This document shows, in pieces, positions 4,149 to 29,564 of a stretch of DNA of 35,138 bases (position 1 is the first letter of the stretch; the number at the start of each line of letters is the position of its first letter). Origin of the DNA: Oscillospiraceae bacterium (GTDB taxonomy: Bacteria > Bacillota > Clostridia > Oscillospirales > Oscillospiraceae). Below the pieces are notes generated by a model. The model made no database searches, was not told the DNA's origin, and worked only from the letters and a program-made list of their open reading frames with translations. The translations under genes and the position numbers were made by a program. Location: positions 1 to 35,138 of the forward strand of contig JAFTVV010000021.1 in assembly GCA_017465625.1 (NCBI GenBank), in the 5' to 3' direction.

Positions 4149-4193
4149 AATAAAAATACGCATTTCCCAATCACGATGCAGGAGAGATTCAAG

Positions 4194-6376: not shown

Positions 6377-6378
6377 AA

Positions 6379-8912: not shown

Positions 8913-9743
8913 TTATTTCTGATTTTTGCGGAAGTATTTGGGTGAGACGCCGTAGGTCTGCTTAAACAGCTTGTTGAAATAGGAAACCGAGGAAAAGCCC
9001 ACGTTGTTGCATACGGACAAGATGGTATTGTCGGTATATTGCAGCTGAAAAGCTGCCTGCTGCAGGCGGATCTGGTTGAGGTACTCGGTCATGGTATAGC
9101 CGGTGTACTGCCGGAAACGGCGGCACAAATAGGATTTATTAAAATGGAAGGGCTTCAGAATGTCATCAAGACCTACCCGTAGAAATTCATTCATATGGAA
9201 TCGACCCAAAAGCTCACGGAACCACATGGGATAATAGGTGTCGTTGTGGCGAATCCGTTCCTCCACCAAGTGGTTCAGCAGGCAGACACAAAGCGCCCGG
9301 ATGGAGGCTGTGCGGTATTCGGATTTTATGCTGGCGGTCAAAATGGCATTGGTGATGCGGTGCTCATAATCCTCCATTTGCTCCAAAGAGAGGGAAAGAA
9401 CCTTGGGCAGGAGGTTGTTGTGGTAGGCATGTTTGAAATCGTCACCTAAAAAGCTTGAGAGGGAATCAAAGAAATCGGTGTGCATAATGATATCCCGATG
9501 CTTGCAGGTATTGCCCTCCACGCGTTCGAAATAATGAATGTCATCCAAATTCAAAAAGACCATATCACCGGCGTGCAAGGTACGACTTTCACCGTTGAGC
9601 ACGTGGTCGATGGAGCCTTCGAGGATGTAGAAAATCTCATAAAATTGGTGCTTGTGCACCACTTCATCGCCATATTCTGTAATTTTAGAATTAAAGGGAT
9701 GCTCCGATGTGGTCATCCAGTCATCCAGGATCACGTAATCCAA
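8913..9743 (-). CDS. AraC-family transcriptional regulator (cupin sensor + double HTH)
   Basis: 276 residues. The N-terminal half is a cupin-type sugar-sensing domain (HKHQFYEIFYILEG; AGDMVFLNLDDIHYFE). The C-terminal ~100 residues are the AraC/XylS DNA-binding domain with two helix-turn-helix units, including FHFNKSYLCRRFRQYTGY and VGFSSVSYFNKLFKQTYGVSP. The start is TTG at 9743 with AAGGAGG upstream. It is divergent from the glycan operon beginning at 10024, the usual position of a local activator of a carbohydrate locus. The inducer is probably a sugar released from the target glycan (inference). Confidence 0.92.
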   Translation of the reverse strand: MDYVILDDWMTTSEHPFNSKITEYGDEVVHKHQFYEIFYILEGSIDHVLNGESRTLHAGDMVFLNLDDIHYFERVEGNTCKHRDIIMHTDFFDSLSSFLGDDFKHAYHNNLLPKVLSLSLEQMEDYEHRITNAILTASIKSEYRTASIRALCVCLLNHLVEERIRHNDTYYPMWFRELLGRFHMNEFLRVGLDDILKPFHFNKSYLCRRFRQYTGYTMTEYLNQIRLQQAAFQLQYTDNTILSVCNNVGFSSVSYFNKLFKQTYGVSPKYFRKNQK

Positions 9744-9932: not shown

Positions 9933-10023
9933 ATGTGCATAAGCAGTTGGGAGATGGCCTGATTTTATACTGAAATTACCCCATCGGGTCAACTAAGAGC
10001 ATTATATAATAGTGAGGTACAAT

Positions 10024-13844: not shown

Positions 13845-13860
13845 TGATCGGAGGAACACT

Positions 13861-15303
13861 ATGAAAAGAAGCATATGTTTGCTGCTTGTGACCGTGATGC
13901 TGGCAGGACTTTTGGCGGCCTGTAATGGCGATGCCGGAAAGAAAACAGCTGAGCTGAATCCGGCAGATTACGAAACAGATGAGCAGATGATTTTGATCGC
14001 AGATATGCCTCCCAGCCCCTTTGTTGCGGAGGATGTGCAGCTTTACAAGGATTTGGGCTTTACCCATTGGATTCTGACGGAAGACCATACCCCTATGGTT
14101 TCTGACGGCACACTCCACGATAACTACAAAGAGGCCATTGAGATTTTGTCGGATGAGGGGTTTGAGGTTTGGATTCGTAATATGCAAAATGACCCCCATT
14201 ATTTCCAGTTGGAAGAGAGCAAAAAGGGCAGCAACTACGGCTATCCCTATGTTCTGGAGCCTCGAAACATCACCGATGAGTTTTCTGCATTCCCGGCAGT
14301 CACCGGCTTTTATATGATGGACGAGCCTTTCCAGAATACCAAAGAAGATCTTCCCGGCACAGAGGACAATGAAAGCCTCCATCCTGCCTTTGACCAGTTG
14401 GATGCGATGATTGCGTGGAAGAATACCCATTATCCCGACGCGTTCTGGCATATCAATCACATTGGAAGCGGCTCTTGGGATCATTGGCCTGCAGGCAGTA
14501 CTTATGCCGATTTTATTGATGCCTATGTGGAGAATGTCCTCAAAAAGGTGGAAGGCGGCGGCAGAAGCATCTGTATGGACAACTACCCCTTGCCTGAGGG
14601 TGGCGGTGTAATCAAGGAGGCTTTCCTCCACGATGTGTTGGTGCTGGCGCACGCCACCAAAAATTACAACGAAACAGCACCTGCAGGACAGGAAGCCACA
14701 ATGGGCATCTGTCTGCAGACCTTCCAGGATGTGAATCTGAAGCTGCGGGACATTACATCGCCCAATGATGTAACGATGCAGATGTATACGGGTATGGCTT
14801 GCGGCGCGCGGCTGTTTGAGTACTTCTGCTACAGAAGTATTGACGGCATCGGCTTGTACGGCATTATTGATATGACCGGTCAGCCCAGAATTTATGAGCA
14901 TATTCAAAAAGCAAACGAAAGAGCGCTTCCTTTCCAAAAGGTTGTCTGTGCCTTTGACTGGCAAGGCACCACCGTCAATCACGGCAGTGAAAGCGGAATG
15001 GAAAACATCTTTGAGATTGTAGAGCCTATGCTGGCAGAGGACACCGGTGTGCTGACCAATATGGAAAGCCGCTACGATGCCATTGCCGGTCATTTCAAAA
15101 AGGATCAGCAGGATGGCTATATGGTGGTCAACTATACGGCACCGGATCTGAACCTGACCAATGTGATTACCCTGACCTTCCGGGACTGTGAAAATGTGCT
15201 GATTTACACCGAAAACGGTGTTCGTCAGCAAAACCTGGTGGATGGCGGGCAGCTACGTCTGATACTCGGTAGCGGTGAAGCTGCGTTTGTGATTCCTGTT
15301 TGA
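13861..15303 (+). CDS. Lipoprotein with unrecognised TIM-barrel-like putative glycosidase domain (paralogue 1)
   Basis: 480 residues. A lipoprotein signal ends in LLAAC (C21). The rest, from about residue 43, is one domain shared with two other genes of this operon (the C-terminal part of the 1567-residue protein, and the 28221-29564 gene). Shared motifs: IADMP, LTEDH, VWIRN, GFYMMDE (D154, E155), NHI, DNYP (D240), GICLQTF, RDITS and a TGMA..LFEYF block (E320). Alternating strand-like motifs ending in acidic residues suggest a (beta/alpha)8 glycosidase with E155 and D240 or E320 as candidate catalytic residues. This is inference; I do not recognise the family. A beta-rich tail follows (about 380-480). 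GGAGG precedes the ATG, 16 nt after the GH78 stop. Confidence 0.75.
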   Translation: MKRSICLLLVTVMLAGLLAACNGDAGKKTAELNPADYETDEQMILIADMPPSPFVAEDVQLYKDLGFTHWILTEDHTPMVSDGTLHDNYKEAIEILSDEGFEVWIRNMQNDPHYFQLEESKKGSNYGYPYVLEPRNITDEFSAFPAVTGFYMMDEPFQNTKEDLPGTEDNESLHPAFDQLDAMIAWKNTHYPDAFWHINHIGSGSWDHWPAGSTYADFIDAYVENVLKKVEGGGRSICMDNYPLPEGGGVIKEAFLHDVLVLAHATKNYNETAPAGQEATMGICLQTFQDVNLKLRDITSPNDVTMQMYTGMACGARLFEYFCYRSIDGIGLYGIIDMTGQPRIYEHIQKANERALPFQKVVCAFDWQGTTVNHGSESGMENIFEIVEPMLAEDTGVLTNMESRYDAIAGHFKKDQQDGYMVVNYTAPDLNLTNVITLTFRDCENVLIYTENGVRQQNLVDGGQLRLILGSGEAAFVIPV

Positions 15304-15320
15304 TGTAGGGAGAGCAGAAA

Positions 15321-16247
15321 ATGAAACAAAAAACATACCGGCTAACTTCTGATGCGGACATCAAGAAAAGCAAGCGCAGATCCAAGCTGAATCGAAACAT
15401 TTTTATTTTTGTGATGATTATCCCGGCAATGTACGGTATTTTCCGCTATCTTGCAGTAAATATGTACTCTATTTTGCTGGCATTTTCAGACGGCACGCCC
15501 TTTAAAGAGCCCTTCACCTTCCGAAACTTCAGTATGTTCTGGACGGAAATGCAGGGCAACGGCACACTGGCTATGGCGCTGAGCAACACCTTGAAATATT
15601 TTCTTGTGGGCATTGTTCAGCAGTTTTTGTGCTATGTGGTGGCCTATTTCCTGTATAAAAAGATTCCCGGACATAAGATCTTCCGGTTTGCATTCTATCT
15701 GCCCTGTCTGATTGCACCGGTTATCTCCACAGCGATCTTTATGGAACTGATTCGGGTAGGCGGACCGATCTATAAGCTGGCTCACGAGCTGTTTGGCATT
15801 ACCTACAACGACCTGTTATCCAGACCGGAATCGGCGACCCACACCATTATCACCTATATATTCCTGTCCGGCATTGGCACCAGCTACCTGATTTTCCTGG
15901 GTGCCATGAACCGCATCCCCAAGGAGATCATTGAAGCCGGCAAGCTGGACGGCTGTTCCACATGGAGAGAGTTCTGGTCGCTGGTGTTCCCTCTGACCTT
16001 CAGCACCTATTCCACCTTCTTCCTGATGAGCTTGTGTGGCATATTCGCAGCCAGCGGCCCTATTTTGTATATGACACAGGGCGGTGCCGATACCACCACC
16101 TTGGGATACTGGCTGTTTAGTCAGGTAATGGGTGATTCCTACAATTATCCTGCGGCTGTAGGCTTGGTATTTACAATGCTGGGCATTCCCATATTGCTGC
16201 TGAGCCGACACATCATCAACAAAGTGAATCCGGAGGTGACGTACTGA
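15321..16247 (+). CDS. Carbohydrate ABC transporter permease, MalF/LplB-like
   Basis: 308 residues with about six transmembrane helices. The cytoplasmic EAA loop reads EAGKLDGCSTWREFW, followed by VFPLTF, the contact surface for the ATPase. The family imports oligosaccharides as a heterodimer with the next gene's product. AGGGAG precedes the ATG, 17 nt after the lipoprotein gene, and the stop overlaps the next ATG by one base. No ATP-binding subunit is encoded in the window. Confidence 0.93.
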   Translation: MKQKTYRLTSDADIKKSKRRSKLNRNIFIFVMIIPAMYGIFRYLAVNMYSILLAFSDGTPFKEPFTFRNFSMFWTEMQGNGTLAMALSNTLKYFLVGIVQQFLCYVVAYFLYKKIPGHKIFRFAFYLPCLIAPVISTAIFMELIRVGGPIYKLAHELFGITYNDLLSRPESATHTIITYIFLSGIGTSYLIFLGAMNRIPKEIIEAGKLDGCSTWREFWSLVFPLTFSTYSTFFLMSLCGIFAASGPILYMTQGGADTTTLGYWLFSQVMGDSYNYPAAVGLVFTMLGIPILLLSRHIINKVNPEVTY

Positions 16248-17107
16248 TGAAGAAAAATCGCTTGTCTATGCCCAAGGCGGCGTGGCTGATCTTCGCATTG
16301 TGTGCCGTTTACCTGCTGATTCTGCTGATCCCTTATGTGTATGCGTTCTTTGCCTCTGTTTCCGATTATAAGGAGTATTATTTCAGCGTATTTCCCTTCC
16401 CGAAAAACGGTCTGAAGCTTTATAACTACATTGATGCGTGGAATAATCTGAGCTACGAAGGCAACGGCATTCCCCAGATGATTCTGCACAGCCTTTGGTT
16501 TGCCGGCGGCGGTGCAGTGCTGGGTGTGACCCTTTCCACCTGTGGCGCGTATGTTTGCGCAAAGTACAAATTTTTCGGCAGAAAGTTTTTGTACTGGTTT
16601 GCGCTGATCACCATGATGATTCCCGTTGTGGGCAGTATGCCCAGTATGCTCAAGTATGTTTCTGCATTGGGCGTATACGATTCTCCTTTGTATGTACTGG
16701 CGATGTGCCAAACCATCAATGCGGCCTTCATTATTATGTATAGCTGCTTCCAAAGCGTGGATTGGGCGTATGCCGAATCGGCCTTTATTGATGGTGCCGG
16801 ACATTTCCGGGTGTTCTTCAAAATTATGCTGCCGCAGGTCATTTCACCGATGACAGCGCTGATTTTGTCGGACTTCATTTTGTTCTGGGCGGATGTGGAA
16901 AGCTCACTGGTCTACTATCCCAATCTGCCCACCCTGTCCACCGGCTTGTATCACTTCCGCAGTGACGTGATCACCGTGGCAGGTATGCAGCGGTATCCGG
17001 CTTATTTTGCCGCCATCTTGCTGTGTGTAATTCCCACCGTAACTTTGTTCGCCGTGTTCCAGAAAAAGCTGATGGATATTCAGATGTCCGGCGGACTCAA
17101 AGGATAA
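16247..17107 (+). CDS. Carbohydrate ABC transporter permease, MalG/YtcP-like
   Basis: 286 residues with about six hydrophobic segments. The EAA motif is in AESAFIDGAGHFRVFFKIMLP. It is translationally coupled to the preceding permease (one-base stop/start overlap, GGAGGTGAC upstream). Together they form the membrane channel for substrate delivered by the solute-binding lipoprotein encoded next. Confidence 0.93.
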   Translation: MKKNRLSMPKAAWLIFALCAVYLLILLIPYVYAFFASVSDYKEYYFSVFPFPKNGLKLYNYIDAWNNLSYEGNGIPQMILHSLWFAGGGAVLGVTLSTCGAYVCAKYKFFGRKFLYWFALITMMIPVVGSMPSMLKYVSALGVYDSPLYVLAMCQTINAAFIIMYSCFQSVDWAYAESAFIDGAGHFRVFFKIMLPQVISPMTALILSDFILFWADVESSLVYYPNLPTLSTGLYHFRSDVITVAGMQRYPAYFAAILLCVIPTVTLFAVFQKKLMDIQMSGGLKG

Positions 17108-17132
17108 ATTTGGAAAAGGAGTATTTATCTGT

Positions 17133-18767
17133 ATGAAAAAATGGTTTAGTTTCCTGCTGGCAATTGTGATGCTGCTGAGTCTGGCAGCTTGCGGCGGCGG
17201 CAGCGGTGCCGGCAATGGCGACAACGCAGAAAATGAAGAAAAGTATGCAAACCGCAGCAAAAGATTTACCTTGTGCTACTATGAGGGCGGTTACGGTGCG
17301 GATTGGCTTCGTGCCGTGGTAACAGACTATATGGATAACGTCAATCAGGATGTCTATATCAGTCTGAAGAACAGTACCGACAATGCGGTAGCAAGAGAAA
17401 AGATTACTACCCAGACCGGTACTTACGATATGTACTTTATCGAGGTGGATATGTTCCAAAAAGCCAGTGTGCTGGAGGAGCTGTCCGGCCTGCTGGATAT
17501 GGAAGTTCCCGGTGAAGCCGGTGTAAAGGTAAAAGACAAGATCGATCCCCAGTGGCTTTCCTACTATGAAGAGGACGGCAGTTACTATCAGATGCCTGCT
17601 ACCAACTTTATGGGCTGGAACTGGACCTACAACAAGACCCTGCTGGACAGCAAGCTGGGTGAGGGCAACTGGGCACTGCCCAGAACCACCGAGGAGCTGT
17701 TCGCACTGGGTGAACAGCTGTTTGAAAAGGATGTGTTCCTGACCGCTTTTGCCGGCAAGGATACCACCGGCGGTGCCGACTACCTGCGTTACTGCTACGA
17801 GGTTTGGTTTGCACAGATGACCGGTATGGAAGGCTATGATCACTACTTTAACTGTCTGTATAACAATAACGGCACTTATGAGCTGGCCAAGGATTATCCC
17901 CACAACATCGTGGAGAACAAAAATGCCATCGAGAAGACCTATGCCACTGCGCAAACCCTGTGCCAGGGTCGTAACGGTATGGAGTTTATCCACTCCAAAT
18001 CGGAAAGCCTGACCTTCCTGGATGCCCAGTTTCTGCTCAATCAGGGCAGCTTCCGCGGCGCACAGGAGTACCCCATCGCATTTTACTATAACGGCGCATC
18101 TGCACAGCAGGAAATGACCGACTACGTGAAAGACGGCATCATCCAGCAGCAGGATGTGCGGATGATGAAGATGCCGGTCATCAGCGCCATCATCGACAGA
18201 ACCCCCAGCATCAAAGACGATGCAACCCTGGCCGCTGTGGTAGATTACGCAGACGGCAAGGGTCAGCTGCCTGAGGGCGTCACACAGGAGGATGCCGCCA
18301 TCGTGACCGAGGCCCGGAATATGATGGCTGAGCTGGTGTGCCGTGAGTTTGTGGTCACCAAAAACGCCCAGAATAAAGAAGACATCCTGCACTTCATGGC
18401 TTACCTGACATCCGACAGAGCACAGCTGATCGCCGCACAAAACTGCAACGGTCTGCCGGTGCTGAACTATGGCTTTGTGCCCACCGAGGAAGAGCTGGGC
18501 TTTGCCTTCACAGAGTTCACACGGAGCGTTTACGACATTTTGGATACCGCCATTGTGGTGGATATTGCCAAGTTCGACAAGCCGGTGCATCTGTCTGTGG
18601 GTCTGAGCTGGTACAAAGATACCACCGTCAGCGGCGGCACGCTGTCCGGCAATCTGTACATCAAAAATGCTCTGACCGCAGAGGAAATCTATGAGAGCAC
18701 CCTGCAGGCCTATGCAGGCACGTGGCAGGATCGGATCGAGCAGTTCCTGATTCAACAGGGGCAGTAA
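17133..18767 (+). CDS. ABC transporter solute-binding lipoprotein (extracellular, family 1-like)
   Basis: 544 residues. The signal ends in SLAAC (C20), followed by a Gly/Ser/Asn linker, so it is lipid-anchored to the outer face of the membrane. The mature part has a two-lobed solute-binding layout: DMYFIEVDMF early, PATNFMGWNWTYNKTLL in the hinge region, and aromatic-rich segments such as QWLSYYEEDGSYYQMP that suit sugar stacking. The length exceeds typical ~420-residue sugar binders, consistent with the larger LplA/oligosaccharide group. AAAAGGAG precedes the ATG. It follows both permeases (25 nt) and probably hands them glycan fragments. Confidence 0.9.
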   Translation: MKKWFSFLLAIVMLLSLAACGGGSGAGNGDNAENEEKYANRSKRFTLCYYEGGYGADWLRAVVTDYMDNVNQDVYISLKNSTDNAVAREKITTQTGTYDMYFIEVDMFQKASVLEELSGLLDMEVPGEAGVKVKDKIDPQWLSYYEEDGSYYQMPATNFMGWNWTYNKTLLDSKLGEGNWALPRTTEELFALGEQLFEKDVFLTAFAGKDTTGGADYLRYCYEVWFAQMTGMEGYDHYFNCLYNNNGTYELAKDYPHNIVENKNAIEKTYATAQTLCQGRNGMEFIHSKSESLTFLDAQFLLNQGSFRGAQEYPIAFYYNGASAQQEMTDYVKDGIIQQQDVRMMKMPVISAIIDRTPSIKDDATLAAVVDYADGKGQLPEGVTQEDAAIVTEARNMMAELVCREFVVTKNAQNKEDILHFMAYLTSDRAQLIAAQNCNGLPVLNYGFVPTEEELGFAFTEFTRSVYDILDTAIVVDIAKFDKPVHLSVGLSWYKDTTVSGGTLSGNLYIKNALTAEEIYESTLQAYAGTWQDRIEQFLIQQGQ

Positions 18768-18782
18768 TCTGAGGACTTCCTT

Positions 18783-21700
18783 ATGAAAAAATATACGACA
18801 TCGGCCATCAAATGCGGAATTCTGCTGGTTCTGACGGTGTGCCTGATGCTGTGCTGCGCTGCCTGCGGCCAGTCGCCGCAGATCCGGATTGAGGATGATT
18901 TTGCAGACGGCACAGTGATTGAGTATACCGGCGAACCCATCCAGTTTCCCATGGCTTGCGTACAGGATCAATCGGGCACAATTGTTTCCTACGATGTGCG
19001 TTATCAGGTGATCAGCCTGGCAGATGACAGCACTGTGGAAGACGAATATGCCACCTTTGACCTGAAAACCGGCGAATATCAGATTAAATATACCTATATG
19101 AAGGATAAGTCCGTATCCAAAACGGTGAATTTCTCCGTTCAGGACACGGTCAGTCCCTCTGTGGAATTTTTGGATATTCCCAACGGCCTGTTTTTGCAGA
19201 ACATCACCGAGGATGCAGTCAACAAGCTGCCCCTTTACAGCATTGAGGATGCTTCTGCCAACGACGGCATTGATTTGGTCTGCAAGCTGACCTTCAAGGG
19301 TGAAACGGATGCGCAGTTCAGGGAGTATCCCTACCGTCAAATCAACAATTCCTATGAAATTACCGAATTCGGCACTTTCCGCTATGAGCTGACGGCCACC
19401 GACGTCTACGGCAATCAAACCGTAGAGGTCGCCCAGTGGAAGGTGAAGGATCGGCAGTGGCAGCCTGCCCAGATGCCCGATGAGGGCATACTGGCCGACT
19501 ACTCCGTTGAAGGCTACTGCAATATGGTAGAAGGCGGCGATGCCAACCAGTACTACAAGATCGGCAACGATTATGCCGATGAATGGCTGGCAGAGTTTCA
19601 GGGCGCACAGGGCGTGCTGAAAGTGGAGCTGCCCTTCAATAACGCTGTGGGCTGGGGCAACAACACGGTTCGGCTGAGAGTGCCCAAAACCTTTACCCAG
19701 GCAGATTTGGCAGGCAAGTACCTGGCAGTGCGTATGTATGTGGAAGGCGCGCACCTGAAGCCCAACTTCCTCTTCGGCGGCAACAATGTCCAATTCTGGG
19801 CAGAGGATGCCACCACCAGAGCCTTCACCACTGCCATTACCGGCTTGGAGACCGGCGTGTGGAAGACCTACTATCTGGAAGCAGATATGGTAGAGCACAT
19901 CGGTATGTATCCCAACGCCACCTACAATCCCAATACCACCTTCTATGAAGGCGGCGATCCTGCTGATGCCATCCAGCTGTGCTTCCACAGAGAGGCCGGA
20001 TACTTTAACGATATGGTGCTGTATGTAGACAGCATCTCCATCGCAGACTTCCTGCCGGATACAGAGCTGACCGTTTCCGGCACACAGGCCAGCTGGACAC
20101 CGGTGGCAGGTGCGGTGGGTTACCGGATTGACCTGAACGGCACACAAAGTGTGACACAGGAAACACAGATTCAACTGCCCGGTGAAAAGGGCTTTGTGCG
20201 CGTGACCCCCATGGGCAACGGTGTGACCACACTGGATGCCCAAACCGTGACCGGTGTTTACGGTCTGGATGCCGGCGACAGCCTTGCGAAATTCGACGAT
20301 GCACTGTATGTTGATCTGTTCAGCGACATTTTGAAATTCAGCACCGAATCCGAGCATAACGGATACCGTCCGGTATCTTTAAGCGGTATGCTGTTGGGAG
20401 AGGGCGTGCAGATGGATATCGGCACCGGCTCTTGGGGCGTGGTCACCGGCGTGCGGTTCCTGTTCCCCAACGCCCGGCAGAAGGGCAATAATACCACCAT
20501 GGTGCTGAATATGATGGTCAGTAACGCAGATTATGACCAAATTCGTGTCTATGACTATCACGGCACACTTTTGGGTGTTTTGAAGCTGGAGGATGCCCAT
20601 GCAGGGCAGTTCCATCAATATGAGCTGGACATTTCGGCCTACAACCGAAAGCTGGAAGGCGTACAGCTGATTTTTGGACCAAACAGCAGCTTCAGCTCCG
20701 TCAATGGCGGTGTTTCCGTCACGTTCAAGGAGATCAGCCTGAAAAACACCTACTATCCCATTAGCGTCAACGGTCAGAGCCTGATGTGCGCAGGAAACCG
20801 GAAATTGATTCCCGGCTTCAGCAATAAGGATCTGGTGCAGTTTACCACATTCTATAACTTCGGCGTAGGCTACAGTGATACCCCTCTGAGCTTCTCCGGC
20901 ACGGTGCTGGTAGACGGCAAACGGGTTCAGGACGGTGCAATGACCGTCGTAGGATATCCGGGCACGGATACCATCTGCTTTAAAGTGCCCCATAACGGCA
21001 AGATTCTGACCATTATGAAGGATTCTGTGATCTATTATAACGGCATTGCCGTCAAGGTAGAGGAAACCTTCAATGCCTATTGGGACGGCAGTAAGTGGGT
21101 ACGCGTAGCCAATATTCCGTCACCGCCCACCACGGAGTACGTCACGGTCAGTGACGGCACCAGCAAGGTGGTGGAAAACAAGGGCGCACTGGAACAGGGC
21201 TATACAGCCAACGGTGTGGTACAGTTTTTGAATGTCCACGATTTCGGCGTTACCGCCGATGATATACCGTTGCAATTTGACGGAACGGTGATGCTGGACG
21301 GTCAGATTCTCCGTTCTCCGCAGTTTGTGGGTTACCCCAAGAATACCACCATCGCCCTGAAAGCACCCCATCAGGGCAAGCTGCTCACCATTATGCAGGA
21401 TTCTGTGATCTACTATGGCGACGCGGCCTTTGTGGTCACCAAAACCTTCAATGCCAAGTGGGACGGAAGCAGCTGGAATGCCGTTTCTGAAATTCCTCCC
21501 ATCCCGGAAACCCAGTACATCACTTTAGATGACGGCACGACCCGGGAATTGATGGCAACTGTCACCCTGATCCCCGGCTACACCGCGGATACATTGGTGC
21601 AGTTTCCGGATATTTATGACTTTGGCGCACCGGCAGACAGCACACCCATCGGATTCCAGGGTACGGTGTTGCTGCAAGGCGTAAAGGTGGAAAATCCTGC

Positions 21701-23348
21701 CTTCAATGCGTACCTGAACTCTACAACAGTCGGTTTGGAAAAAATCAACCACAAGGGCAAGGTCGTTACCATTGTGGAGGGTTCTTACATCTATAACGAT
21801 ACTGCCGCTGTGCAGGTGCAGACCACCTTCAACGCAGTATGGGATGGCACAAGCTGGACTGCTGTGGATGAGATTCCCGAACCGGAAGCACCCAAGGAGG
21901 GAACAGTCCGCTTCGAGTACCGCTACGGCGCGGCCAATGTGATCCAGGTCAATACCAATTTGCCTGCGTCCATTCCCTGTGCCAACTTCCTGACAACCGA
22001 TCACGGCAGCAACATTGATCAAAGCGCCAACCAGTACCAGCAGGTAGGCTGGATTGGTATGACCAATGCCGATGGCGTGATTGTCCTGTCCTTGAACTTC
22101 AACAGCAACTTCTCTGCCGGACAGACTTATTTCCTGCCTGCAGGCTGTGTGTTTGGCTTTGCTGACGGCAGTAAGTTCACACTGGATCAGGATTATACCT
22201 TCCTGTACGATGGCACAGTCTGGACCTTGAATGAAACCCCGGAGCCCCCGGTCATCGAGCCTACCGATCCTCCCACACCGGAGGAAGGCGTGATGAATCT
22301 GCAGTACCGTTACGGTACAAACAACCTGATTCAGGTCAACACCGACTTGCCTGCCACCACACCTTGCGTCAACTTCCTGACAACCGATAACGGCAGCAAC
22401 ATTGATCAGAGCGCCAACCTCTATCAGAACATTGGCTGGATCGCGATGGAAAAGGTGGACGGCGTGATCGTTCTGACCTTCCACTTTAACGGCACATTCA
22501 GCGCAGGACAAAACTACACCCTGCCTGCAGGCGCAGTCTTCGGCTTTACCGACGGCAGCACCTACACTTTGGATGAGGGTTACGAGTTTACCTTCGACGG
22601 CAGCAGCTGGAGTATGACCACCACTGGGGAAGAAGAACCTCCTGTTATTGATCCGGAGCTTCCGGTGCTGAGCTTTACCATGAAGGGCGGCAGCAGCAAG
22701 ATCATTCAGGTATACACCGATCTGCCTGAAAACACACCCTGCGCCGACTTTACGGCAGAAGACAATGGCTGTCAGATTGATGAAACCGGCAATGTGCAGG
22801 CGCTGAAAAACATTAAAATGCGGCTCAGTGACGGTCAGATTTACTTTATGATCTGGTTTAACGATGCATTTAAAAACGGTGAGACTTACACTTTGCCTGC
22901 CGGTTCTGTCTTTGGCTTCACCGATGGCAGTAAGTATGTGCTGGATAAAAACTACATCTTTACCTACAATGACGGCTGGTCTATGGAGGTGACAGAGCCG
23001 GCTGAAAACACCCTAAGTTTTCAGCTGCGCTACGGCACTGCCAACCTGATTCAGCTGAACACCAATCTGCCGAAAGAAACACCCTGCGTCAACTTCCTGA
23101 CAACCGATAACGGTTGCGTCATCGATGAGAGTGCAAACCAGTATCAGCGCATTGGCTGGATCGGTATGGATCAGGCAGACGGCACTGTGATTCTGACACT
23201 GCATTTCAACGCGGCGTTCAAAGCCACACAAACGTATTTCCTGTCCGCAGGCAGCATCTTCGGCTTTACCGATGAAAGCACCTATGCGCTGGACAAGGAC
23301 TACACTTTCACCTTTGACGGCAGCAGCTGGTTGGTGAATGAAACGTAA
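18783..23348 (+). CDS. Giant modular surface lipoprotein with three A-type and four B-type repeat modules
   Basis: 1521 residues. The signal ends in CCAAC (C28), so a lipoprotein is likely, although the -3 position is Cys instead of the usual Leu. About residues 30-245 look Ig-like (SVQDTVSPSVEFLD; TATDVYGNQTVEVAQWKV). Residues ~245-440 and ~510-650 look like jelly-roll carbohydrate-binding domains, with VDSISIADFL and VTFKEISLKN at their ends. Three ~126-residue A modules (about 658-1040) and four ~105-residue B modules (about 1042-1521) follow, joined by Pro/Glu-rich linkers. No catalytic motif is apparent. A role as a glycan-binding protein presenting substrate to the importer and enzymes is inferred. 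It starts 15 nt after the solute-binding protein gene. Confidence 0.8.
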   Translation: MKKYTTSAIKCGILLVLTVCLMLCCAACGQSPQIRIEDDFADGTVIEYTGEPIQFPMACVQDQSGTIVSYDVRYQVISLADDSTVEDEYATFDLKTGEYQIKYTYMKDKSVSKTVNFSVQDTVSPSVEFLDIPNGLFLQNITEDAVNKLPLYSIEDASANDGIDLVCKLTFKGETDAQFREYPYRQINNSYEITEFGTFRYELTATDVYGNQTVEVAQWKVKDRQWQPAQMPDEGILADYSVEGYCNMVEGGDANQYYKIGNDYADEWLAEFQGAQGVLKVELPFNNAVGWGNNTVRLRVPKTFTQADLAGKYLAVRMYVEGAHLKPNFLFGGNNVQFWAEDATTRAFTTAITGLETGVWKTYYLEADMVEHIGMYPNATYNPNTTFYEGGDPADAIQLCFHREAGYFNDMVLYVDSISIADFLPDTELTVSGTQASWTPVAGAVGYRIDLNGTQSVTQETQIQLPGEKGFVRVTPMGNGVTTLDAQTVTGVYGLDAGDSLAKFDDALYVDLFSDILKFSTESEHNGYRPVSLSGMLLGEGVQMDIGTGSWGVVTGVRFLFPNARQKGNNTTMVLNMMVSNADYDQIRVYDYHGTLLGVLKLEDAHAGQFHQYELDISAYNRKLEGVQLIFGPNSSFSSVNGGVSVTFKEISLKNTYYPISVNGQSLMCAGNRKLIPGFSNKDLVQFTTFYNFGVGYSDTPLSFSGTVLVDGKRVQDGAMTVVGYPGTDTICFKVPHNGKILTIMKDSVIYYNGIAVKVEETFNAYWDGSKWVRVANIPSPPTTEYVTVSDGTSKVVENKGALEQGYTANGVVQFLNVHDFGVTADDIPLQFDGTVMLDGQILRSPQFVGYPKNTTIALKAPHQGKLLTIMQDSVIYYGDAAFVVTKTFNAKWDGSSWNAVSEIPPIPETQYITLDDGTTRELMATVTLIPGYTADTLVQFPDIYDFGAPADSTPIGFQGTVLLQGVKVENPAFNAYLNSTTVGLEKINHKGKVVTIVEGSYIYNDTAAVQVQTTFNAVWDGTSWTAVDEIPEPEAPKEGTVRFEYRYGAANVIQVNTNLPASIPCANFLTTDHGSNIDQSANQYQQVGWIGMTNADGVIVLSLNFNSNFSAGQTYFLPAGCVFGFADGSKFTLDQDYTFLYDGTVWTLNETPEPPVIEPTDPPTPEEGVMNLQYRYGTNNLIQVNTDLPATTPCVNFLTTDNGSNIDQSANLYQNIGWIAMEKVDGVIVLTFHFNGTFSAGQNYTLPAGAVFGFTDGSTYTLDEGYEFTFDGSSWSMTTTGEEEPPVIDPELPVLSFTMKGGSSKIIQVYTDLPENTPCADFTAEDNGCQIDETGNVQALKNIKMRLSDGQIYFMIWFNDAFKNGETYTLPAGSVFGFTDGSKYVLDKNYIFTYNDGWSMEVTEPAENTLSFQLRYGTANLIQLNTNLPKETPCVNFLTTDNGCVIDESANQYQRIGWIGMDQADGTVILTLHFNAAFKATQTYFLSAGSIFGFTDESTYALDKDYTFTFDGSSWLVNET
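20756..21885 (+). repeat. Three tandem A-type modules (coding repeat)
   Basis: Units start near 20756, 21136 and 21513. Each begins with a strand such as YVTVSDGTS or YITLDDGTT, has a core with VQF, DFG, GTV and TIM.DSVIYY-type motifs, and ends in FNAxWDGxxW. The period is about 126 residues. The first unit is the most divergent at its start. Confidence 0.8.
21906..23345 (+). repeat. Four B-type modules in the modular lipoprotein (coding repeat)
   Basis: Units start near 21906, 22291, 22669 and 23011. The consensus runs RYGTxNLIQVNTxLP, then TPCxNFLTTDNG, IDxSANQYQ, a GWIGM core, DGxIVLTxHFN, AGQTYxLPAGxVFGF.DGS, and ends YTFTFDGSSW. The third unit is divergent, with MKGGSSKIIQ in place of RYG. 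Confidence 0.85.
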
Positions 23349-23392
23349 TTTTGGAAGGCAACTTCCTAAAATATAAGAAATGAGGGAACACT

Positions 23393-26300
23393 ATGCAAAC
23401 CGGTAAAAAACTGTGCGCAATTCTCTTAACCCTGTGTATGCTGGTGGGCGTACTGCCTGCAAGCGTACTGGCTACAGGTACAGACACTGCGGTCCTGGGT
23501 CGGCAGCTGATGCTGGGCGATGACCTGTGTATGCACCTGCACACCAATGTCAGCCAGGAGCTGGCAAACCCGGTGGCCACCATTTCCGTAGCCGGAGTGG
23601 TTGCTGAAACCTACAACATTCGGGAAATGACTGCGCAGGAAAACGGCAGTTATGACCTGTCCGTTCATTTAGGCGCACCGCAGATGACCGATATCATCAA
23701 TCTGCGAATCGTCGACGGTGAAACGGAAGTTCTGAATGCAGACTATACCATTCAGGGCTATATCCAGTATTTGCTGGATAACAACTACACCGATGAAACC
23801 AAAGCATTGGCAAAGAGCCTGCTGCACTACGGTGCAAAGGCACAGTTGTATTTCGACTACAACACAACGAATCCGGCAGATGCCGGCAACGAGATCGAGG
23901 TAGAAAACACCATTTCTGCCGAATCTCCCAACGTGGTAGTGGACGGAGCTGTTGAGGGAATCAAGTACTACGGCAGTTCGATGGTCTTCCGTTCCAAGAT
24001 CGCGATCCGTTACTATTTTGCAACCGATGCGGTAACAGGCTACACCTATAAGGTGAATGGCAAGGAAATTCAGCCTGCCATCAAGGAAGGACAGTGCTAC
24101 ATCGAGGTTGCTGATATCAACCCGGATCAGATGGATCAGGAAATGCTGGTAGAAGTATCTGACGGCACTTCCCAGCTGAGCTTCCGCTATAGCCCCAATG
24201 CATTTATCACCCGTATGTACAACCGGGATACCACCGATCAGGAATTAAAGGACCTGCTGGTTGCCGCCAAGCACTATTTTGATGCGGCAAAGGTCTTTAC
24301 CGGCGTGGCAGAAAACCGCACCGGTGCTTTGAGCCTCCAGTACCGTTACGGTACAAGCAACCTGATTCAGGTCAATACCAACCTGCCTGCAGACACACCT
24401 TGTGTCAACTTTACTGCCGGCGACAACGGCAGCTCCATTGACCAGTCTGCCAACCAGTATCAGCAGTTTGGCTGGGTTGGTATGGACAATGTGGACGGCA
24501 CCATCGTGCTGACCTTCCATTTCAATGGCGCTTTTGAAGCCGGTCAGACCTATGTGCTGCCCAAGGGCGCAGTCTTCGGCTTTACCGACAACAGCAAGTA
24601 CACCCTGGATAAAAACTACACCTTTACCTTTGACGGCTCCGGCTGGACGATGGTGGCTGCAGAGCCTGCCATTACCCTGGAATACCGTTGGGGTAATGCC
24701 AACACCATCCAGTACAACACCAATCTGCCTGTAGAGACCGTCGGCGGCGACTTCCTGGCCGATGCCAACGGCTGTCAGCTGGCTCAAAGCGGCGATCAGA
24801 ACGTGGGCTGGATCTCTATGGTAAATGCAGATGGCACCGTCGTGTTGACCTTCAACTTTAACGCAGCCTTTGCAGTTGGCGGCAGCTATACCCTGGCTGC
24901 GGGCTCTGTGTTTGGCTTTGCCAACGGCAGCAAGTATCAGCTCAACGAAGATGTCACCCTGTACTGGGACGGCACCAGCTGGGGCACTGAACCTCCTGCT
25001 GTGGAGCCGGAAGTGGGCAGTCTGAGCTTTAGCTACCGTTACGGCACAGAAAAGCTGATCCAGGTCAACACCGACCTGCCTGCAACCACGCCGATCGCCA
25101 ACTTCCTGGCAACCGACAACGGCTGTCAGATCGATCAGTCTGCCAACCAGTATCAGCAGGTGGGCTGGTTCAGTATGGTCAATGCAGAGGGCACCATCGT
25201 ACTGACCTTCAACTTCAATAGTGCTTTCAGCGCAGGACAGACCTACTTCCTGCCCAAGGGCGCGGTCTTCGGCTTCACCGATGGCAGCAAGTATGCGCTG
25301 GATAAAGATTACACCTTCATCTTTGACGGCAGCAGCTGGAGCATTGTGGAGCCGCAGCCTGAGGTTCAGAATATCAACCTGACCTACCGCTGGGGTAACA
25401 ATAACACCATTCAGTATAACACGGATCTGCCCGCGACCACACCTTGCGCAAACTTCCTGGCAACCGACAACGGCTGCAGCCTGACGCAGAATGTGCAGGC
25501 CGGATGGATCGGCATGGAAGCAGTGGACGGCGTGATCGTGCTGACCTTCCACTTTAACACCGCGTTCAATGCAGGCGAGCAGTACACCCTGTCTGCCGGC
25601 TCTGTGTTTGGCTTTACCGATGGCAGCAGCTACACACTGCCTGCCGATGTCACCCTGTACTGGGACGGCACTGCATGGAGTGCAAATGAGCCTGCAAAGC
25701 AGATCACCCTTGCATACCGTTGGGGTAATGAAAATACCATTCAATACAACACGGACCTGCCTGCAACCACTCCGATCGCCAACTTCACCGCTTCCGAGAA
25801 CGGCAGCAACCTGATTCAGACTGCCAACCAGTATCAGAATGTGGGCTGGATCGGTATGGACAATGTGGATGGCACCATCGTTCTGACCTTCCACTTTAAC
25901 GGCACATTCAATGCAGGCGAAAATTATGTACTGTCTGCCGGCTCTGTGTTCGGCTTCACCGATGGCAGCAGCTATACACTGCCTGCAGATGTGAACCTGT
26001 ACTGGGACGGCGCTAATTGGGGCGTAGATGTTCCTGTGCTGCAGGATGTGCTGGATGAAGAAAATTTCACAGGCGGCAAGGAGTTCATCACTTTTGCCGA
26101 CCTGCCGGTGGACGGCAACAACGCCACCAAGCTGGCTGAGTATGTGGCCCTGGGCTTCAATACTTCCTTGCTGACTGAGGATCACACCGATACAAAAGGC
26201 CCGGATGAGCGTTACAGTGTCTCCTTGCAGACCGCCAATGAGCCCTCCGACAGCCTGAACTTTACTTACCGCTACGGCACAAACAACCTGATTCAGGTCA

Positions 26301-28096
26301 ATACCAACCTGCCCTCCGATACACCCTGTGTCAACTTCACCGTTGGTGACAACGAGTGTGATATTGATCAGTCCGGCAATACGGTACAGTGGGTTGGCTG
26401 GATCGGTATGGACAATGTGGACGGCACTATCGTGCTGACCTTCCACTTCAACAATGCCTTTACAGCCGGACAGAGCTATGTACTGCCCAAGGATGCACTC
26501 TTTGGCTTTACCGATGGCAATATGTACCTGCTGGATGGCGACTACACCTTCACCTTTGACGGCACCAACTGGAGCACCGACTGCTCTGTGCTGAAAATGT
26601 CCCTCAATGCCGGTGACGCCAAGTATATGCAGCTGAAGACCAACATTCCCACAGGCCTGACCTATGGTGACTTCCTGCTGGGCGATACCGCAAAGGGCAA
26701 CCTGATTTTGGAGACCACCGAAGGCGCTCAGAGCGTTGCATGGTTCAGCTACAGCGAGCTTTCCGGTGCAGTTTATCTGACTTTCAACTTCACCGGCTAC
26801 AACAAGCCCGGCACCCAGTACATCCTGAAGGCCGGTACATCCCTGAAGGCCGCCGACAAGGTCTATACCACCGATCGGGATTACATCCTGACGGTGCAGA
26901 ACGATTATTTGACCGCTTTGGAGAATCTGGACAAGGCCGGTTTGAAGGTATGGATTCGTAATCACCACAACAAGGCAAATTACTTCACCTCCGATTTGAC
27001 CAGCACCTTGCTGCTGTACAAGGACGTCATTGACGGCTTCTATATGGTGGATGAGGCATTCCAGACCAACGCATTGCTGACAGCCGCCGGTCAGGAAAAC
27101 AAGACCAGCGACTTTGAATCCATGATGGTGGTCAGAGACTGGTTCAACCAGAACTTTGCCGACAAGTATTACCACTCCAACCACGTGCCCATTACCTCCA
27201 TTGACCACTATACCGTTGCAAACGGCAGCACGCAGGTTGAAGATCTGGCAAGGGGCTATGTGGCATTCCTGCAGGATTACAAGACGAAATACAACGATCA
27301 GCTGACTGCCGCCTCCGGCACTTCCATCAGCTTCGACAACTATCCCTTCGTCCACGCACAGGGTGATTACAAGTACGGCACACTGAACCTGAAGACCAAA
27401 TTTGAAAGCGGCATCCAGAGCACTTATTTGGCAAACTGTCTGATTGCCGCACAGGTAGCAGCTGAGGATGACCTCGGCTTGTGCATCCAGACCTTCGAGG
27501 CCACCGACATGACCTACAAGGTTACCCGTGACATCACCTCCGCTGCGGAAGTTTCCCTGCAGCTGTATACCGGTATGGCAATGGGCGCAGACCTGTTCGA
27601 GTACTTTGCATACAACTCCAACAGCGACTTTGATGCCATTATGAATCTCGATGGCAGTAAGCGCATCTATGACCTGGTCAAGAAGGGCAATGAGGCTCTG
27701 TGCTTCGCTGATGTGGTCAACACCTTCTCCTGGAAGGGCATTATGACCAGTGCCGGCTCTGCCAACAGCCACAACACGGTCGGCTTTGGCTATGTTGCCG
27801 GTATGGTGCTGAACGACAGCAATAACGGTGTGCTGAGCAGTGTATCTTCCACCGATGACGCCATCGTTGGCTGCTTCGCCAAGGATGACCTGAACGGCTA
27901 TATGGTGGTCAACTTCAACGACCCCGTTGCCGTTACCGGCAATAACACCGTTACACTGACCTTTGCCGGTTGCACCCGTGCAAGAGTCTACACCAATGCA
28001 GACGGCGTTCTGACAAGCCAGCTGGTAGACCTGACTGACGGCACTTATACCGCCACCTTGGTTCCCGGCAGCGCTTGCTTCGTCATCCCCGCATAA
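23393..28096 (+). CDS. Giant secreted modular protein: YGA-type domain, seven B modules, and a split putative glycosidase domain (paralogue 2)
   Basis: 1567 residues. A signal peptide with probable cleavage after SVLA (about residue 27) and no lipobox, SLH domain or LPxTG sequence means it may be released. About 30-305 is a domain containing LLHYGAKAQLYFDYN, also found at the C-terminus of the protein at 30627. Five B modules follow (about 312-890). Residues ~896-936 match the start of the unrecognised enzyme domain (FADLP, LLTEDH). Two more B modules (about 954-1168) interrupt it, then it resumes (VWIRN, GFYMVDE with E1221, DNYP with D1315, LFEYF with E1403) and runs to the end. Probably a glycan-degrading enzyme with binding modules; activity is inferred. 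GAGGGA precedes the ATG. Confidence 0.8.
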   Translation: MQTGKKLCAILLTLCMLVGVLPASVLATGTDTAVLGRQLMLGDDLCMHLHTNVSQELANPVATISVAGVVAETYNIREMTAQENGSYDLSVHLGAPQMTDIINLRIVDGETEVLNADYTIQGYIQYLLDNNYTDETKALAKSLLHYGAKAQLYFDYNTTNPADAGNEIEVENTISAESPNVVVDGAVEGIKYYGSSMVFRSKIAIRYYFATDAVTGYTYKVNGKEIQPAIKEGQCYIEVADINPDQMDQEMLVEVSDGTSQLSFRYSPNAFITRMYNRDTTDQELKDLLVAAKHYFDAAKVFTGVAENRTGALSLQYRYGTSNLIQVNTNLPADTPCVNFTAGDNGSSIDQSANQYQQFGWVGMDNVDGTIVLTFHFNGAFEAGQTYVLPKGAVFGFTDNSKYTLDKNYTFTFDGSGWTMVAAEPAITLEYRWGNANTIQYNTNLPVETVGGDFLADANGCQLAQSGDQNVGWISMVNADGTVVLTFNFNAAFAVGGSYTLAAGSVFGFANGSKYQLNEDVTLYWDGTSWGTEPPAVEPEVGSLSFSYRYGTEKLIQVNTDLPATTPIANFLATDNGCQIDQSANQYQQVGWFSMVNAEGTIVLTFNFNSAFSAGQTYFLPKGAVFGFTDGSKYALDKDYTFIFDGSSWSIVEPQPEVQNINLTYRWGNNNTIQYNTDLPATTPCANFLATDNGCSLTQNVQAGWIGMEAVDGVIVLTFHFNTAFNAGEQYTLSAGSVFGFTDGSSYTLPADVTLYWDGTAWSANEPAKQITLAYRWGNENTIQYNTDLPATTPIANFTASENGSNLIQTANQYQNVGWIGMDNVDGTIVLTFHFNGTFNAGENYVLSAGSVFGFTDGSSYTLPADVNLYWDGANWGVDVPVLQDVLDEENFTGGKEFITFADLPVDGNNATKLAEYVALGFNTSLLTEDHTDTKGPDERYSVSLQTANEPSDSLNFTYRYGTNNLIQVNTNLPSDTPCVNFTVGDNECDIDQSGNTVQWVGWIGMDNVDGTIVLTFHFNNAFTAGQSYVLPKDALFGFTDGNMYLLDGDYTFTFDGTNWSTDCSVLKMSLNAGDAKYMQLKTNIPTGLTYGDFLLGDTAKGNLILETTEGAQSVAWFSYSELSGAVYLTFNFTGYNKPGTQYILKAGTSLKAADKVYTTDRDYILTVQNDYLTALENLDKAGLKVWIRNHHNKANYFTSDLTSTLLLYKDVIDGFYMVDEAFQTNALLTAAGQENKTSDFESMMVVRDWFNQNFADKYYHSNHVPITSIDHYTVANGSTQVEDLARGYVAFLQDYKTKYNDQLTAASGTSISFDNYPFVHAQGDYKYGTLNLKTKFESGIQSTYLANCLIAAQVAAEDDLGLCIQTFEATDMTYKVTRDITSAAEVSLQLYTGMAMGADLFEYFAYNSNSDFDAIMNLDGSKRIYDLVKKGNEALCFADVVNTFSWKGIMTSAGSANSHNTVGFGYVAGMVLNDSNNGVLSSVSSTDDAIVGCFAKDDLNGYMVVNFNDPVAVTGNNTVTLTFAGCTRARVYTNADGVLTSQLVDLTDGTYTATLVPGSACFVIPA
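24327..26895 (+). repeat. Seven B-type modules in the secreted protein (five tandem plus two inserted in the enzyme domain)
   Basis: Units start near 24327, 24670, 25021, 25373, 25702, 26254 and 26590. Units 1, 3 and 6 are Y-type (RYGTxxLIQVNT, ending FTFDGxxW or similar). Units 2, 4 and 5 are W-type (RWGNxNTIQYNT, ending LYWDGxxW). Unit 7 is strongly diverged (LKMSLNAGDAKYMQL). Nucleotide identity between units is high in places, so recombination between copies is possible. Confidence 0.85.
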
Positions 28097-28108
28097 TTTG
28101 TTTCCGAT

Positions 28109-28182
28109 AAGGGAGGGGAATCCCCCCTCCCTTACAGAATCGTATAGCGGTCTGCTCCTACCGTTTTGGTGGAAACAGACCG
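28109..28182 (+). other. Two consecutive RNA hairpins in the only long gap of the operon
   Basis: Hairpin 1 is AAGGGAGGGG pairing with CCCCTCCCTT around AATCC (about 28109-28134). Hairpin 2 pairs CGGTCTG (28148-28154) with CAGACCG (28176-28182), with an inner CTACC/GGTGG stem. No T run follows either, so they are not clean intrinsic terminators. They may cause partial termination or protect an mRNA end. Confidence 0.55.
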
Positions 28183-28220
28183 GTATGCGATTACCAAAAT
28201 TAAGCCGGAGGTTTTTTGCT

Positions 28221-29564
28221 ATGGAAAATAAGTTTATCAGACTGGCAGATCTTCCCCCGAATCCCACAAACGCAGATGCCCTGAAGCACTACAGGGAATT
28301 GGGGATGAATGTATGTTTGCTGACCGAGGATCAGGTGAAGCTGGTATCTGATGGGGTACTCAGCCGGGATTATCAGCAAGCTATCCAAAATATTTCCGAT
28401 GCCGGTATGCAGATTTGGATTCGGAATATGTTCAACGATGCGGATTATTTCCAATGTGAGGAGAAAAAGATCGGCTCTAATTACGGTTGGACTTATGAGA
28501 TGGATCCACGGAACATTACCGATGAATTTCAAAAATTCCCGGCGGTGACCGGATTTTATATGGCAGACGAAGCATATATGTACCGCTTGCCGGAAAAAGT
28601 GAGCATTGACTGGATGGTGAAGGAGAACCACTTATTTGCTTCTTTTGATCAGCTTACCAAGCTGGTGGACTGGAAAAACAAGTACTATCCCGATGCCTTT
28701 TTCCATATGAATCACGTACCCGGTCAAAGCTGGGATCACTATCTGCCCCGTGACGGAAAAATCTACAACTACGAGGATTTCTTAACGGAGTATGTCAACG
28801 TGATCCTCAAACGGCTGAAAGGTTGCGGAAGAAGTCTCTGCCTGGATAATTACCCCTTCATTGGCGAAAATTATCTGGAAAAGGACTATCTTTTTGACCT
28901 GATGACTGCCGCAAAGGTGACCAGAGCCTACAATGCGGAAGCGGCGCAGGAGGATCAGGCGGTATTCGGCATCTGTATCCAGACCTTCGAGGCCAAGTCT
29001 ATGTTTGACGATCGAAAGCGGGATATTACCTTACCGGAAGAGGTCACATTGCAAATGTATACCGGTATGGCGTTGGGTGCCCGACTTTTCGAGTATTTCT
29101 GCTATCGCAGCTATAATCGGGAGATGTTCGGCATTCTGGATCCGGATGGCAACGATCGGATTTATGACATTGTCAAAGCTGCCGGTGATCGCGTGGCATA
29201 CTTTGAACCCATAATCAGTCAGTACGATTCTGTCGGTGGATATATGGTTCCCGGCAGTCTGTACAGCTATAATACAGCCGCCATGGTGATGGCGAAGGAC
29301 TTGTTCTGCAAACCCTTCGACATTGGGGTGGAAAGCCAGTATGATACGTTGGTAGGCTGCCTGACCCGGGGCAGTGAAAAGGCCTATATGCTGGTAAACT
29401 ATACCGATCCCATCCGCAAAGCCACCAGTCAGGTGAAGTTGCAGGGGAACGGTGTGCAGCAGCTGCGGCTTTATAAAGACGGAAAGGAAACAATGCTGCA
29501 GGCAGAAAACGGCCGTTTTACCGTCACGCTGGAGCCGGGCAACGCCGCACTTGTTATATGGTAA
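28221..29564 (+). CDS. Cytosolic TIM-barrel-like putative glycosidase (paralogue 3)
   Basis: 447 residues, no signal peptide, so predicted cytosolic. It is one full copy of the unrecognised domain found in the 13861 lipoprotein and the 1567-residue protein: LADLP, LLTEDQ, IWIRN, GFYMADE (E117), NHVPGQSWDHY, DNYP (D209), GICIQTFEA, RDIT and LFEYFCYRS (E291), then a beta-rich tail ending ALVIW. It resembles the lipoprotein copy most closely (shared SNYG, DPRNITDEF-type stretches and WDH). I chose the ATG at 28221 with GGAGG at 28207-28211; upstream in-frame ATGs at 28098 and 28185 lack sites. It is the last gene of the operon, 124 nt after its neighbour, followed by a hairpin terminator. Confidence 0.77.
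   Translation: MENKFIRLADLPPNPTNADALKHYRELGMNVCLLTEDQVKLVSDGVLSRDYQQAIQNISDAGMQIWIRNMFNDADYFQCEEKKIGSNYGWTYEMDPRNITDEFQKFPAVTGFYMADEAYMYRLPEKVSIDWMVKENHLFASFDQLTKLVDWKNKYYPDAFFHMNHVPGQSWDHYLPRDGKIYNYEDFLTEYVNVILKRLKGCGRSLCLDNYPFIGENYLEKDYLFDLMTAAKVTRAYNAEAAQEDQAVFGICIQTFEAKSMFDDRKRDITLPEEVTLQMYTGMALGARLFEYFCYRSYNREMFGILDPDGNDRIYDIVKAAGDRVAYFEPIISQYDSVGGYMVPGSLYSYNTAAMVMAKDLFCKPFDIGVESQYDTLVGCLTRGSEKAYMLVNYTDPIRKATSQVKLQGNGVQQLRLYKDGKETMLQAENGRFTVTLEPGNAALVIW

Follow-up and report, generated by a model that had tools for sequence, protein, structure and literature searches.

What kind of enzyme would be built into a surface lipoprotein, a secreted protein and a cytosolic protein of one and the same gene cluster? 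The question is raised by a 35,138 nt stretch of DNA (the window), which represents one whole contig (JAFTVV010000021.1, contig C22) of the 1.70 Mb, 80% complete draft genome (GCA_017465625.1) of a gut bacterium of the family Oscillospiraceae. Three of its genes specify proteins that have a domain of ~400 residues in common:

13861..15303, + strand: predicted lipoprotein enzyme copy (P0001), 480 aa, with D154-E155, D240 and E320
23393..28096, + strand: predicted secreted modular enzyme copy (P0003), 1567 aa, with a leader, five 105-residue repeats and an enzyme domain broken by two more; D1220-E1221, D1315 and E1403
28221..29564, + strand: predicted cytosolic enzyme copy (P0002), 447 aa, with D116-E117, D209, Y211, Q254 and E291

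The domain seems to form an undescribed branch among the barrels related to glycoside hydrolase family 42 (GH42), one with an altered catalytic centre that belongs to neither GH42 nor GH123. The usual catalytic residue on barrel strand 7 is missing, so that these enzymes probably follow a different chemical route. Residue numbers below are those of the cytosolic copy unless another protein is named.

That the three window proteins are homologous is beyond doubt. In BLASTP comparisons, the lipoprotein and cytosolic copies are 40% identical (E 2e-116), the lipoprotein and secreted copies 34% (E 1e-56), and the cytosolic and secreted copies 32% (E 2e-57), with a further N-terminal segment aligned separately (E 1e-6). 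A preliminary description, made from the letters alone, had listed eight ordered motifs and three candidate acids for each protein; all eight motifs occur in that order in every copy, and the acids (E155/D240/E320, E117/D209/E291 and E1221/D1315/E1403) lie exactly where they were placed. Its picture of one family in three predicted compartments and one gene cluster is also supported. The genes from 10012 to 29564 are all on the same strand, with intergenic gaps of -4 to 124 nt. Compartments were assigned by eye from the leader sequences, these being a lipobox (LLAAC) in the 13861 protein, a Sec-type leader in the 23393 protein and none in the 28221 protein, the start of which is backed by four orthologues that all begin Met-[Glu/Gln]-Asn-Lys-Phe.

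None of the three window proteins has a match above the curated cut-off in Pfam or NCBIfam, the best Pfam match among 18 core sequences of the family (E 0.0018) occurs in a single member, and no solved structure was matched by sequence in searches of the PDB (best E 0.15 and 0.52). Among the titles and abstract openings listed in a literature search there was no paper on the family, and none joining DUF4434 with a glycoside hydrolase. The earlier suggestion of an unrecognisable, perhaps new family is thus borne out as far as the curated models go, but not at the level of profile comparison, which links the domain to GH42. CAZy often adds families, and whatever the mechanism, this one could already be classified there, with only the local arrangement being new; the lack of any Pfam-A or NCBIfam match above cut-off, and of a solved structure matched by sequence, makes this rather unlikely.

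Profile comparisons started from the 18 core sequences (profile A2), which drew in distant members. An alignment of 31 of these (A3; 16-32% identity to the first), with other open reading frames (ORFs) left out (e.g., L025, L032, L039, L044 and L048), was combined with the core to give a merged profile of 49 sequences. Reference sets came from public genomes and included GH42 (16 sequences, L079-L094, the weaker L095-L103 being left out), GH123 (25), DUF4434 (17), GH20 (15), DUF4838 (20) and GH5 (5-9 per seed). Where hhalign was used, the E-values refer to single comparisons. By this measure, the merged profile aligned to GH42 with an E-value of 3.4e-13 over 297 columns that span strands 1-8, A3 with 1.2e-12, and the core profile alone with 2.7e-7 when the GH42 barrel was trimmed. 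The other families followed at 1.1e-7 (DUF4434), 4.8e-5 (GH123), 3.2e-4 to 6.5e-4 (GH5, residues 9-176 at most), 0.0048 (GH20) and 0.026 (DUF4838), and the negative controls gave 0.041 (GH29), 0.32 (GH78), 0.39 (solute-binding proteins), 0.61 (GH37-like) and 0.30-0.46 (reversed profiles). On these values, GH5, GH20 and DUF4838 were dropped as candidates for the closest family. Against the PDB, A3 matched the beta-galactosidase 5xb7, presumably a GH42 member (E 3.6e-9, mainly in the strand 7-8 region), then showed dockerin matches, which arise from extra domains in some of its rows, and finally GH5 entries over the first half. When the sequences were compared singly with Pfam, the GH42 model (PF02449) was listed for none of the 18 core sequences (E up to 1) and for three of the 31 distant members (best E 6.3e-7), two members passing its cut-off. 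DUF4434 (PF14488) was listed for 2/18 core (best E 0.032) and 4/31 distant sequences (best E 0.00036), all below its cut-off, and the GH123 model (PF13320) for none of the 18 core (E up to 1) or 31 distant sequences (E up to 0.1). The barrel-glycosidase relationship put forward in the preliminary description is supported by these comparisons, and we are highly confident that the domain is a barrel related to GH42, the fold itself being predicted from the profile alignment.

In addition to the barrel, the family resembles GH42, which comprises beta-galactosidases and alpha-L-arabinopyranosidases, in the position of the acid/base Glu, the strand-6 DxYP motif and the strand-8 G-A...YF region. It differs in having Asp for Asn before the acid/base, in having no strand-7 acid, and in its length, since the core protein has 447 aa and no Pfam trimerisation domain was found after its barrel. 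DUF4434, the second closest profile, has the acid/base Glu aligned and Asp before it in 9/17 sequences, but differs in keeping the strand-7 Glu (17/17). GH123 (beta-N-acetylgalactosaminidases) has consecutive Asp and Glu that align residue for residue with those of the present family and needs no strand-7 nucleophile, but only residues 16-157 align, and the predicted barrel starts at residue 3, leaving no room for an N-terminal sandwich. GH20 and DUF4838 are amino-sugar glycosidase families with genes next to several distant members; neither has significant profile similarity to the present family.

Some carboxylates are kept nearly throughout the 49 sequences, namely D116 (49/49), E117 (49/49) and D209 (48/49), along with Y211 (49/49) and N164 (44/49). 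In all eight alignment settings the GH42 acid/base is matched by E117 and the preceding Asn by D116, and in six of the eight D209-x-Y211 falls on the GH42 DNYP motif; GH5 profiles likewise place their Asn-Glu on D116-E117 (3/3 seeds). The 16 GH42 sequences have Asn before the acid/base in 15 cases, the acid/base Glu in 16 and the nucleophile Glu in 14, and their DNYP Asp column holds Asp in six and Asn in seven. Measured against GH42, then, the strand-4 Glu is aligned in 49/49 sequences, each time preceded by Asp, and the strand-7 Glu is lacking in 48/49; the resulting Asp-Glu motif (49/49) is aligned to that of GH123 (25/25 in the GH123 set). The D116-E117 pair is likely to be the catalytic one. 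The GH42 alignment and the conservation across the 49 sequences led to a revision of the E117/D209/E291 triad of the preliminary description, which had overlooked the invariant D116. E291 occurs in 18/18 core sequences and in 22/49 overall, and it aligns with a strand-8 Gln of GH42; the triad containing it was dropped on the 22/49 count.

A classical retaining enzyme could nonetheless operate with a relocated nucleophile, which would be D209 on strand 6 or, in the core family, E291 on strand 8. The 48/49 conservation of the former and the 18/18 core conservation of the latter would fit, and there is a precedent in clan GH-D, where the carboxylates lie on strands 4 and 6. However, 27 of the 49 sequences lack E291, its GH42 counterpart is a Gln, and the GH42 column under D209, mixed as it is, belongs to enzymes in which another residue is the nucleophile, so that a relocation seems distinctly unlikely.

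At strand 7, the Q254 column holds Gln in 39/49 sequences (23/31 among distant members), Leu in five, Arg in two, and Met, Glu and Lys in one each. The Glu, in L030, is the only acid at this column; there is none at I253, and no other strand-7 column keeps an acid. The register is uncertain by one residue: the Glu is matched by Q254 in the HMMER alignment to 5xb7 and in the hhalign alignment to DUF4434, and by I253 in 8/8 settings of hhalign with GH42. Both residues are non-acidic. A near-invariant Gln is found in a separate R-x-Q helix motif, which is distinct from the strand-7 position. It is very probable that the family has no acid at the strand-7 position. With the usual nucleophile missing, and with copies that adjoin transporter genes and repeat proteins at many loci, one might suspect that a GH42-like enzyme has given rise to a non-catalytic domain that binds sugars or serves as a scaffold. 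This is very unlikely, given that all 49 sequences retain both the acid/base Glu and the Asp before it, even though 28 of 30 distant members are less than 25% identical to the first of the set, and given that one copy is leaderless, both in the window and in four orthologues.

How such a centre might work is suggested by better known enzymes. For the GH42 enzyme BiBga42A, PMC10688820 describes Glu160 as acid/base and Glu318 as nucleophile, Asn159 and Asp285 as binding galactose O2, and Asp285 and Tyr287 as binding alpha O1. GH164 is also GH42-like and keeps both Glu residues (PMC7105311), and the DE motif of GH123 supplies an Asp that stabilises the 2-acetamido group and a Glu that acts as acid/base (PMC11087588). 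In the present family, the first of the two O2 contacts of GH42 has become Asp, the second is Asp, the Tyr is kept, the nucleophile is gone, and the Asp-Glu resembles that of GH123, which together led us to a reading of substrate assistance. The proteins would form an undescribed branch of GH42-like (clan GH-A type) barrel glycosidases in which the strand-7 nucleophile has been lost, E117 would be the acid/base, D116 (replacing the usual Asn) and D209/Y211 would hold the C2 substituent of the sugar, and the N-acetyl group of the substrate would serve as nucleophile, as in GH123 and GH20. We give this reading, the retaining, substrate-assisted hydrolysis of a beta-linked 2-acetamido sugar, a probability of roughly 0.45.

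The same contacts could be turned to a different use. In an inverting glycosidase, E117 would act as general acid, with D209 as the general base that activates a water on the alpha face, and the substrate would be a glycan of ordinary (possibly deoxy) sugars linked to rhamnose. The likely GH42 counterpart of D209, Asp285, binds the alpha-anomeric O1 together with Tyr287 (PMC10688820), just where an inverting water would sit. D209 is conserved in 48/49 sequences, and the scanned neighbours at core loci are of GH78, GH37-like, GH29 and GH30 types, not amino-sugar genes, which would also suit an inverting enzyme. It would depart from the retaining mechanism that characterises clan GH-A, and it leaves unexplained why an invariant Asp (49/49) should stand in place of the Asn before the acid/base; we consider it unlikely.

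Gene context agrees with the substrate-assisted, amino-sugar reading in part. The binding proteins of nine chosen loci match TIGR03850 in 9/9 cases and NgcE, a model for N-acetylglucosamine (GlcNAc) and diacetylchitobiose, in 7/9. A scan of 112 of 117 selected neighbouring ORFs, mostly around distant members and covering the best 25 of 100 families, gave among the matches listed three GH20, two DUF4838 (which we take to be GH163), two GH38, two GH29 and two rhamnosidase genes, and ten ABC transporter permeases. Two of the three GH20 genes could be located (L177 and L156), as could one of the two DUF4838 (L180) and one of the two GH38 (L181), and a GH109 gene lies beside one distant-member locus (L175). 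GH163 is described as acting on N-glycan GlcNAc (PMC10154615). The link to rhamnose rests on the GH78 gene of the window; among relatives at core loci, GH29 follows in two, with a class II aldolase in one of those two, and GH30 in one.

Several points weigh against the main reading, from its GH42 relationship to substrate assistance on an amino sugar. What the analysis shows is homology, residue conservation and synteny; fold, catalytic roles, substrate and compartments are predictions from sequence. The GH123 similarity is weak (E 4.8e-5 over residues 16-157 only, and 0.036 for the core alone), and that to GH20 is not significant (0.0048). Compared with the untrimmed GH42 set, the core profile alone reached only E 6.7e-4. 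At strand 7 the register may be off by one residue, a single sequence (L030, 1/49) carries Glu at the Q254 column, and D209 falls on the GH42 Asp in only 6/8 settings, at a column that is Asp in six and Asn in seven of 16 sequences. DUF4434 often has Asp before the acid/base (9/17) yet retains the strand-7 Glu (17/17), so the Asp alone proves nothing about loss of the nucleophile. None of the binding-protein matches reaches a curated cut-off, and models of this kind may be few in NCBIfam. The neighbour counts stand without a random-neighbour control and are not independent, since L156/L183 and L181/L187 are apparently syntenic pairs from a single genus. Finally, the scanned neighbours of core loci (GH78, GH37-like, GH29 and GH30) include no recognised amino-sugar enzyme.

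The arrangement of the three copies could be accounted for by the serial processing of one glycan, a plausible idea in which the lipoprotein and secreted copies would cut the glycan outside the cell, the adjoining ABC transporter would import the pieces, and the cytosolic copy would finish them together with the GH78 and GH37-like enzymes. The secreted copy has a further peculiarity that was overlooked in the preliminary description, in that its enzyme domain is interrupted directly after the LTED motif by two 105-residue repeats:

26081..26188, + strand: first enzyme-domain piece of P0003, residues 897-932, up to LTEDHT; matches the start of the cytosolic protein
26189..26890, + strand: insert of ~234 residues with two 105-residue repeats at roughly residues 956-1060 and 1068-1172
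26891..28093, + strand: second enzyme-domain piece of P0003, residues 1167-1567; matches the rest of the cytosolic protein

An insert of similar length (~234 residues) is present in the three secreted-copy orthologues that were read (L005, L007 and L008). Judging by the GH42 alignment, it would interrupt the loop that follows barrel strand 2, which would place the repeats beside the mouth of the active site. Altogether, the repeat occurs five times upstream of the enzyme domain in P0003, twice in the insert and four times in the lipoprotein encoded at 18783, and it accompanies the enzyme family in three lineages (the window proteins, L010 9357-12182 and L185 6468-9911). The repeats of the window proteins have no Pfam match above cut-off, and they may represent a new sugar-binding module.

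A search of genome contigs found 12 loci from eight genomes. All three copies, with the same neighbours, occur in four of the eight (RGIG8730, RGIG381, RGIG3076 and RGIG4139), which are metagenome-assembled genomes (MAGs) from the gut of deer, goat and cattle. Among these, the locus is spread over two contigs in two, and one copy is split over two frames in two; the split copies are the lipoprotein copy of RGIG4139 and the secreted copy of RGIG381 (L014 8001-9149; L008 2990-7725), and the splits are either real or assembly errors. The remaining four genomes have one or two close members each. L009, L015 and L016 keep the lipoprotein enzyme beside the two permeases and the binding protein, along with a homologue of the 18783 lipoprotein that showed no copy of the 105-residue repeat, and an Erysipelotrichaceae MAG (L010/L186) carries the same genes in two divergent blocks together with a leaderless copy. 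The distribution of the family is patchy, with no match in four genomes of the same genus (G049, G135, G195 and G523), 1/200 in a sample of the GTDB family (the window's own genome, with a single-protein query), 13/394 by profile in a sample of the order (own included, the others being distant members) and 2/398 by profile in a sample of the phylum (own included, the other a distant member). A viral origin was dropped as an explanation: a first scan of IMG/VR found no relative, and a second only L017 (residues 30-143, E 2e-5), a record without a profile match. Two distant members were found to have no annotated plasmid relatives.

In a maximum-likelihood tree of 26 rows, the genus-level lipoprotein (five), secreted (four) and cytosolic (five) copies form separate clades (100/100 each), and the leaderless Erysipelotrichaceae copy joins the cytosolic ones (97/96). 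Outside the three clades, the lipoprotein forms from L009 and L061 have no settled position, and the tree program flags long branches. From this tree, the pairing of an inside and an outside enzyme probably either predates the genus or travelled as a cassette, and neither is favoured. A tentative wider scenario, possible though doubtful, is that two coupled changes in a GH42-like barrel, Asn to Asp and loss of the strand-7 Glu, gave rise to a substrate-assisted superfamily, found here in Clostridia and other Bacillota, with one lineage later acquiring three forms in one operon and building two sugar-binding-like repeats into the secreted barrel.

If true, this would join two catalytic plans that are usually found in separate clans, the barrel of clan GH-A and the nucleophile-free Asp-Glu of GH123 and GH20. 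It would also supply a sequence rule (Asp-Glu with no strand-7 acid) for recognising amino-sugar enzymes among barrels without a family model, and make a direct mutant test possible. The three paralogues would also offer a natural set for studying how one enzyme is fitted to act on a single glycan at the surface, after secretion and in the cytosol, and the main significance lies in this set together with the loss of the nucleophile across the whole superfamily.

The genome itself carries two further distant members, on C42 (L156 7034-12472) and C1 (L187 6161-7771). One of them is 1813 aa long and adjoins a GH20 gene, and the other lies beside a gene sized like the GH38 gene of L181. DUF4838 matches occur on C1, C11, C14, C25 and C27 of the same genome. 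Elsewhere, three distant members follow one another in L175 (167-4787), next to GH78-like and GH109 genes.

The other genes of the cluster in the window, and the regulator beside it, are as follows:

8913..9743, - strand: regulator, presumed from its sequence to be AraC-type; divergent from the cluster, and adjoins the locus in relatives too
10012..11244, + strand: GH37-like (trehalase family) protein, Pfam PF01204 E 3.5e-77; no leader by eye
11241..13844, + strand: GH78 alpha-L-rhamnosidase-type protein, Pfam PF17389 E 2e-69; no leader by eye
15321..16247, + strand: ATP-binding cassette (ABC) transporter permease 1, PF00528 E 1.6e-12
16247..17107, + strand: ABC transporter permease 2, PF00528 E 4.2e-15
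17133..18767, + strand: solute-binding lipoprotein; its closest NCBIfam models, TIGR03850 (E 9e-17) and NgcE (E 1.1e-8), both fall short of the cut-off
18783..23348, + strand: large lipoprotein, 1521 residues, four 105-residue repeats; lipobox by eye

The GH37-like protein (10012-11244) has QWG at a site where we take the trehalase signature to read QWD, and its specificity may have changed as a result. The gap before the cytosolic gene (28097-28220, + strand) has a strong predicted fold (z -5.6) with two hairpins. No Rfam family matches it at gathering score (best E 0.24), and a search of the same genome for a second full copy of the element gave none. The second hairpin, which directly precedes the start, is also found in L005 (z -2.9) and L008 (z -1.8), where both sides of the stem are changed by eye, and L007 has a different hairpin (z -4.0). 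Just upstream of the locus, at 4176-7869, are genes that we would name galM, galK and galT-like; galK and galT are also present in L012. Further upstream, a glycine riboswitch (2358-2451, + strand; Rfam RF00504, E 1.3e-10) directly precedes the gene at 2494, which presumably specifies a sodium/amino-acid symporter.

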